The notes beneath the pieces were generated by a model, which saw nothing but the letters and a program-made list of their open reading frames with translations, was not told the origin of the DNA and did not search any database. Made by a program: the position numbers and the translations under genes. From Tannerellaceae bacterium (GTDB lineage Bacteria > Bacteroidota > Bacteroidia > Bacteroidales > Tannerellaceae): 64,000 nt of DNA. The stretch spans positions 1 to 64,000 of the forward strand of contig JAITRW010000022.1 of the NCBI GenBank assembly GCA_031288175.1. The letters are read 5' to 3'. This document shows positions 14,184 to 14,863 of the stretch, piece by piece. How positions within the stretch are numbered: position 1 is the stretch's first letter; every line of letters begins with the position of its first letter.

Positions 14184-14863
14184 ATGATAAAACTTGTCGT
14201 ATTCGATCTCGACGGCACATTGCTTAATACTATTTCCGACCTTGCAGCTGCTACTAACTATGCCCTTGCCAAGAACGGTTTTCCTACACATCCCGAAGCT
14301 GCTTACCCATATTTTGTCGGTAACGGTGTTATGAAACTTTTTGAAAGGGTCTTGCCGGAAGATAAGCGTACCACAGAACATATCCTCGCTATCTGCAATA
14401 CTTTTTTGCCTTACTACAAAGAACATGATACCGATCATACTTTCCCTTACCAAGGTGTTCACAAGATGTTGCGGGACTTGCAGGCAATGGGTATTGGGCT
14501 TGCAGTGGCTTCCAATAAAATTCATGCGGCGACCCGTAGGTTAGTATTTCATTACTTCCCCCATATTCATTTCTGTCGCGTTATCGGGCAACGCGAAAAC
14601 GTTCCGTCAAAGCCTGACCCTTCTATCATATGGGACATACTAAAAACTACCAATATAGATGGGGGGGGGGGGAGGAGGTATTATATGTGGGAGATTCCGG
14701 TGTAGATATGCAAACCGCTGCTGCCGCCAGGGTGATTTCTTGCGGTGTCACTTGGGGTTTTCGTCCCAGGGAAGAACTTGAAATCTTTGAACCGGATTTT
14801 ATCGTTGATACAGCCGAAGAGATAGTTCGTATCGTTCGGTCACAAACGATCCACTTTAAATAA
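14184..14863 (+). pseudogene. Phosphoglycolate phosphatase-like HAD hydrolase, reading frame broken at a G12 tract
   Basis: The 5' frame (14184-14705) gives an HAD protein: nucleophile motif FDLDGTLLNT, motif II in LAVASNK, and the KPDPS motif III lysine. After a run of 12 G (14661-14672) it runs into a stop at 14703-14705 (173 residues). The rest of the enzyme, EEVLYVGDSGVDMQTAAAAR (motif IV GDSxxD) to IVRSQTIHFK, is in the next frame, 14672-14863. Ten or 13 G would fuse them into a normal protein of about 225 residues with a short glycine linker. A -1 ribosomal slip, or one extra G added by RNA polymerase, would do the same. It may therefore be an assembly error, a phase-variable gene, a slippage gene or a recent pseudogene. 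The substrate, probably phosphoglycolate, is inferred from family only. Confidence 0.85.
14661..14672 (+). repeat. Homopolymer run of 12 G inside the HAD phosphatase gene
   Basis: Twelve consecutive G follow the GAT codon at 14658-14660. Such a tract mutates readily by slipped-strand mispairing and is also error-prone in sequencing. It lies in a loop between motifs III and IV where extra glycines should be tolerated. Confidence 0.95.

Follow-up and report, generated by a model that had tools for sequence, protein, structure and literature searches.

A twelve-guanine tract divides a HAD phosphatase gene in a Tannerellaceae genome with an excess of poly-G tracts

Background

Hypermutable poly-G/C tracts are known from Campylobacter jejuni, an organism without functional mismatch repair in which slippage biases are said to yield modal lengths of G9-G10 (PMC8355987). 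In Bacteroides, phase variation is attributed by a 2025 review to invertases, with the repeat-mediated kind listed for other groups (PMC11868660). The literature searched for the present analysis (open-licence papers only, and thus no proof of novelty) yielded no poly-G phase variation or phasome in Bacteroidota. Described here is a G12 tract within a stretch of 64,000 nucleotides, analysed whole and termed the window, from an uncultured bacterium of the order Bacteroidales, family Tannerellaceae. In a comparison that excluded the window's own and near-identical records, GlyRS relatives of this bacterium lie at 71-78% identity and include Ca. Symbiothrix, Tannerella and Proteiniphilum. The tract lies in a gene for a phosphoglycolate phosphatase-like HAD hydrolase and is compared with the same site in relatives and with the G runs of the whole assembly and of the family.

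The divided phosphatase gene

The HAD gene is spread over two reading frames (Table 1). The upstream open reading frame (14184-14705, 173 aa) includes HAD motifs I-III and reads, from the ATG at 14184, MIKLVVFDLDGTLLNT...SKPDPSIIWDILKTTNID, followed by four glycine codons and a stop ending at 14705. One base back, the frame of the downstream open reading frame (14630-14863) reads ...EEVLYVGDSGVDMQTAAAARVISCGVTWGFRPREELE... up to the stop ending at 14863 and holds motif IV, YVGDSGVDM. The motif order I (DxDGT), II, III (KP) and IV (GDSxxD) is complete, with IV in the -1 frame, and the HAD domain is not covered by one uninterrupted frame, as the frame changes at 14661-14672. An earlier note had reported a G12 run breaking this frame with motifs intact on either side; the exact position, the step of -1 and the presence of all four motifs in order are borne out. 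The arithmetic of that note, by which G10 or G13 would give a single frame of about 225 aa, is right and extends to G4 and G7.

Table 1. Features of the divided HAD gene and the second long G tract of the window
Feature	Coordinates	Strand	Remarks
N-terminal part of HAD / phosphoglycolate-phosphatase-like gene	14184..14660	+	159 codons, motifs I-III; frame continues to stop at 14703-14705
G12 tract	14661..14672	+	frame moved by -1; 8 bases longer than the fixed loop spacing of the family
C-terminal part of the same gene, -1 frame	14672..14863	+	reads GAG GAG GTA ...; motif IV YVGDSGVDM; stop included (coding 14672-14860)
Second long G tract, G9 then TAAA	33427..33435	+	apparently intergenic; belongs to the genome-wide tract set

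Each part matches phosphoglycolate phosphatase models on its own, the N part NF009695 (7.9e-28) and TIGR01449 (9.4e-25) and the C part NF009804 (2.4e-10) and TIGR01449 (5.2e-9). As the halves were scored separately, neither reaches the curated whole-protein cut-offs. An intact relative matches solved phosphatases (PDB 2hi0, 2hsz) along its length.

Conservation at the tract site

The family was searched with the N part in 125 genomes, one of them from the genus, and a match was found in 65/125 and none in 60/125. The fetched loci were read in all frames and 27 full-length relatives were aligned. In each of the 27 a single frame is open throughout and the spacing at the tract site is fixed, the number of residues that separate the helix with its final I/V from the strand VLYVGDS being invariant among them, and a G run occurs at this site in none of the 27. 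The window residues I-D-G-E-E-V-L-Y fit the family spacing at G4, from which the 8 additional bases of the tract are counted.

The window gene keeps 53/56 of the family-invariant residues in its N part and 14/14 in its C part, and its C/N identity ratio is 1.01, exceeding that of all relatives (0.81-0.98). Judged from these residues, the gene behind the tract has not been decaying, and an old pseudogene is rejected. The earlier note had likewise argued against old decay, on the strength of an intact promoter; its conclusion holds, with residue conservation rather than the promoter as its basis, and the upstream sequence has no obvious match to the Bacteroidota -33/-7 pattern as generally known. 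With both halves conserved to this degree, the OFF state would be either recent or reversible.

A recent and fixed loss, in which the tract grew, the gene was broken throughout the lineage and decay has yet to begin, is an improbable account of this state. The enzyme looks dispensable in the family from the 60 genomes that have no protein match, and its role could in part be covered by another intact HAD_2 phosphatase of the genome (C42:124268-124819, 232 aa). Against such a loss, the gene has no second lesion, its C part is as conserved as its N part, and a tract of 12 Gs would be unlikely to remain fixed.

Reading through the tract

Some full-length enzyme might also be produced from the divided gene by a -1 ribosomal shift or by RNA-polymerase slippage, both of which the earlier note had proposed as routes to a reduced, tunable level of the enzyme. 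The sequence G-GGG-GGG can permit a -1 shift, and compensatory frameshifting on a G run is known in herpesvirus TK (PMC5009743). To that extent a tuned ribosomal shift is biochemically conceivable; the slippery run is, however, absent from all aligned relatives, and no stable structure stands out 3' of the tract (z +0.92). A conserved programmed -1 frameshift is rejected on both grounds. The proposal of one extra transcribed G is not supported, as homopolymer insertions in the transcriptomes of E. coli and Buchnera are confined to A/T runs (100%) and G/C runs are reported not to be slippage-prone, in data whose homopolymer runs reached only 9-11 bases (PMC5574713). Programmed or tuned recoding is very improbable at this locus.

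G tracts across the genome

The assembly comprises 1,602,784 bases in 45 contigs and is a fragmented draft, 77% complete. Relative to a first-order Markov model of the window applied to both strands and 1.6 Mb, G runs are in large excess, with 49 runs of at least 9 on either strand (about 8 expected) and 4 of at least 12 (about 0.13 expected, P ~1e-5); a chance run is rejected on these expectations. Run lengths in the whole genome (G7=21, G8=13, G9=32, G10=10, G11=3, G12=3, G15=1) do not follow a simple exponential and have an excess at exactly G9, the mode. The 3' neighbour of G9 is T in 28/32 runs, with TA in 24/32, and that of runs of at least 10 is A in 16/17 (P ~3e-10). The G9-TA(A/T) form spans unrelated gene families, both strands and several frames (L039-L076). 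A role of G9-TA as a promoter (-7 box) was considered and dropped, as the letters downstream misfit and many tracts are intragenic on either strand.

The genes that bear tracts, identified by frame scoring and Pfam scans of the stretches around the tracts, include those for GT8, GT2, GT4/GT1, GT32/Caps_synth and GH3, SAM methyltransferases, a radical SAM-SPASM protein, a sulfatase-domain (LTA-synthase-like) protein, SusD and SusC/TonB receptors, as well as RsmG, YceG and an acetolactate-synthase-like TPP enzyme. Frame changes coincide with the tract in GT8 (L041), GT2 (L062, G12), GT32/Caps_synth (L070), SAM methyltransferase (L047) and GH3 (L049) genes, and weaker frame calls of this kind are obtained for two GT2 genes (L057, L074) and the radical SAM-SPASM gene (L058). 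GT2 genes carry tracts in 3 of about 19 cases versus 0.55 expected (P ~0.01-0.02, the gene totals being estimates). In one region (L062, G000:C29:113700-116996), three consecutive GT2 genes lie near a contig end and the last is split by G12, and another GT2 gives two partial matches with no tract of G9 or longer between them. The radical SAM-SPASM gene (L058, G000:C24:9600-14600) is split between its domains at a G10 that is poly-C on the coding strand.

Under a strict frame call, the reading frame is kept across 8/11 intragenic G9 tracts (P=0.009 vs 1/3) and across 3/8 of those of at least 10, which are frame-random, a difference that is itself not significant (P=0.18). A mostly in-frame G9 and a frame-random longer class would fit slippage that is free only in the longer tracts.

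The same figures bear on whether the tract length was miscounted. Long G runs are error-prone and hard to call. If the consensus were wrong in length, the cells would hold an in-frame tract and the gene would be ordinary and intact, an explanation that is the chief alternative, if less likely than not. The fully conserved flanks, the intact frame of every aligned relative, the frame-randomness of tracts of at least 10 and the fragmented state of the draft all speak for it. Against it, a miscount of 1-2 bases cannot create the tract, as the in-frame lengths near 12 still exceed the family spacing by at least 6 Gs; the flanks appear to have been added to rather than replaced, unlike in two-colour poly-G read artefacts; and the G9 tracts of the same assembly are in frame above chance, so that lengths are not generally random. 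The earlier note had named phase variation and assembly error among its options; both remain plausible, and the genome-wide tracts strengthen the case for a hypermutable tract.

Origin of the G12 tract

At about an even chance, the G12 is an expanded tract of slipped-strand mispairing in a housekeeping HAD gene, captured by the consensus in its OFF state. The tract, the frame break, the intact flanks, the absence of the tract in relatives and the genome-wide excess are observed. Slipped-strand mispairing fits these best, given that Gs have only been added, that the flanking codons are kept, that the genome is rich in tracts and that their modal lengths resemble those of C. jejuni. By the mechanism proposed, a short purine stretch in the loop (G4 in the family spacing) would have been lengthened by replication slippage. 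At its present length the tract would gain and lose single Gs frequently, such that its length is heterogeneous and cells are either in frame (ON) or out of frame (OFF), and the assembled consensus would merely chance to be OFF. Loss of mismatch repair is rejected as the cause, since mutS1 (an 891-aa open frame) and mutL (a 589-aa frame) are present and look full length. Their presence, in which the genome differs from C. jejuni, weighs against the slippage reading.

The locus would on this mechanism behave as a poly-G contingency locus, probably an accidental one in a genome that accumulates poly-G rather than a selected switch. A tract of hypermutable length shifts the frame within an open reading frame (G12, -1), and the genome has a large number of tracts, many of them in surface or glycan genes (49; GTs, methyltransferases, SusC/D, GH3, sulfatase). 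The tract is not conserved in orthologues, none of which has the run, and with the run absent from the site in relatives nothing points to a switch under selection; against a selected switch speaks also the HAD product, which is an intracellular enzyme and no surface structure.

Tracts in other genomes of the family

G9 counts per family genome range from 0 to 430 overlapping matches. The pattern HG9TAW occurs 22 times in the present genome versus 7 for the reversed control and, by tally, about 113 times versus 69 across the other 124 family genomes; a pattern search for HG10TAW finds none in the present genome. In other family genomes, tracts split SusC between the carboxypeptidase-like and plug domains (L199, L200) and are present in genes for acyltransferases and hexapeptide transferases (L187, L190, L206), in a TupA-like ATP-grasp gene (L189), in a core-2/I-branching-type GT gene (L090) and in one housekeeping gene, for diaminopimelate dehydrogenase (L203). 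This case and the HAD gene indicate that tracts also grow in genes that would not plausibly gain from switching. G9-TA tracts coincide with frame changes at several loci of these genomes (L187, L189, L199, L200, L203, L204), inside genes for SusC receptors, hexapeptide transferases, the TupA-like ATP-grasp and diaminopimelate dehydrogenase, and in several family loci the TAA directly 3' of G9 is the stop of the upstream frame. One family genome has a run of 32 Gs (G003:C13:55246-55277), possibly an artefact of sequencing or assembly.

It is tentatively suggested, at somewhat less than an even chance, that a poly-G contingency system like that of Campylobacter operates in this family of Bacteroidales. 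In such a system, dozens of intragenic tracts (GT, methyltransferase, acyltransferase, SusC/SusD) would switch surface structures by slipped-strand mispairing, beside or instead of the DNA inversions usual in the order; the G9-TA(A/T) form would give several genes a TAA stop immediately 3' of the tract when OFF, and the HAD tract would be collateral. Taken alone, the locus is an ordinary tract, either hypermutable or mis-measured, and the tract set of the genome and family is the more interesting lead. The phosphatase alone is of little import, its tract sitting in an apparently dispensable housekeeping gene. If tract lengths vary in cells, slippage would be a further means of switching the surface glycans and outer-membrane transporters of the family. 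Where a G tract breaks a gene call in draft genomes of this kind, the gene should not be taken as a pseudogene.

Comparison with known systems

The window gene resembles the phosphoglycolate phosphatase-like HAD hydrolases (NF009695/TIGR01449; PDB 2hi0, 2hsz) in that both its halves match and its catalytic motifs are complete, and differs from them in that its frame is broken ahead of motif IV. With the poly-G/C contingency loci of C. jejuni, the tract set shares a number in the tens per genome, lengths mostly of 9-10 Gs, a location of many tracts in glycan and surface genes and the accompanying frame changes (PMC8355987). By contrast with C. jejuni, the host is a member of the Bacteroidales in which mutS and mutL are present, the HAD gene is a housekeeping gene, and the G9 tracts have an unusual 3' TA(A/T). 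Phase variation by invertases in Bacteroides (capsule, SusC/SusD) has target genes (SusC/SusD, polysaccharide) and order in common with the tracts (PMC11868660); the mechanism is site-specific inversion in Bacteroides, whereas mononucleotide tracts within the coding sequence are found here.
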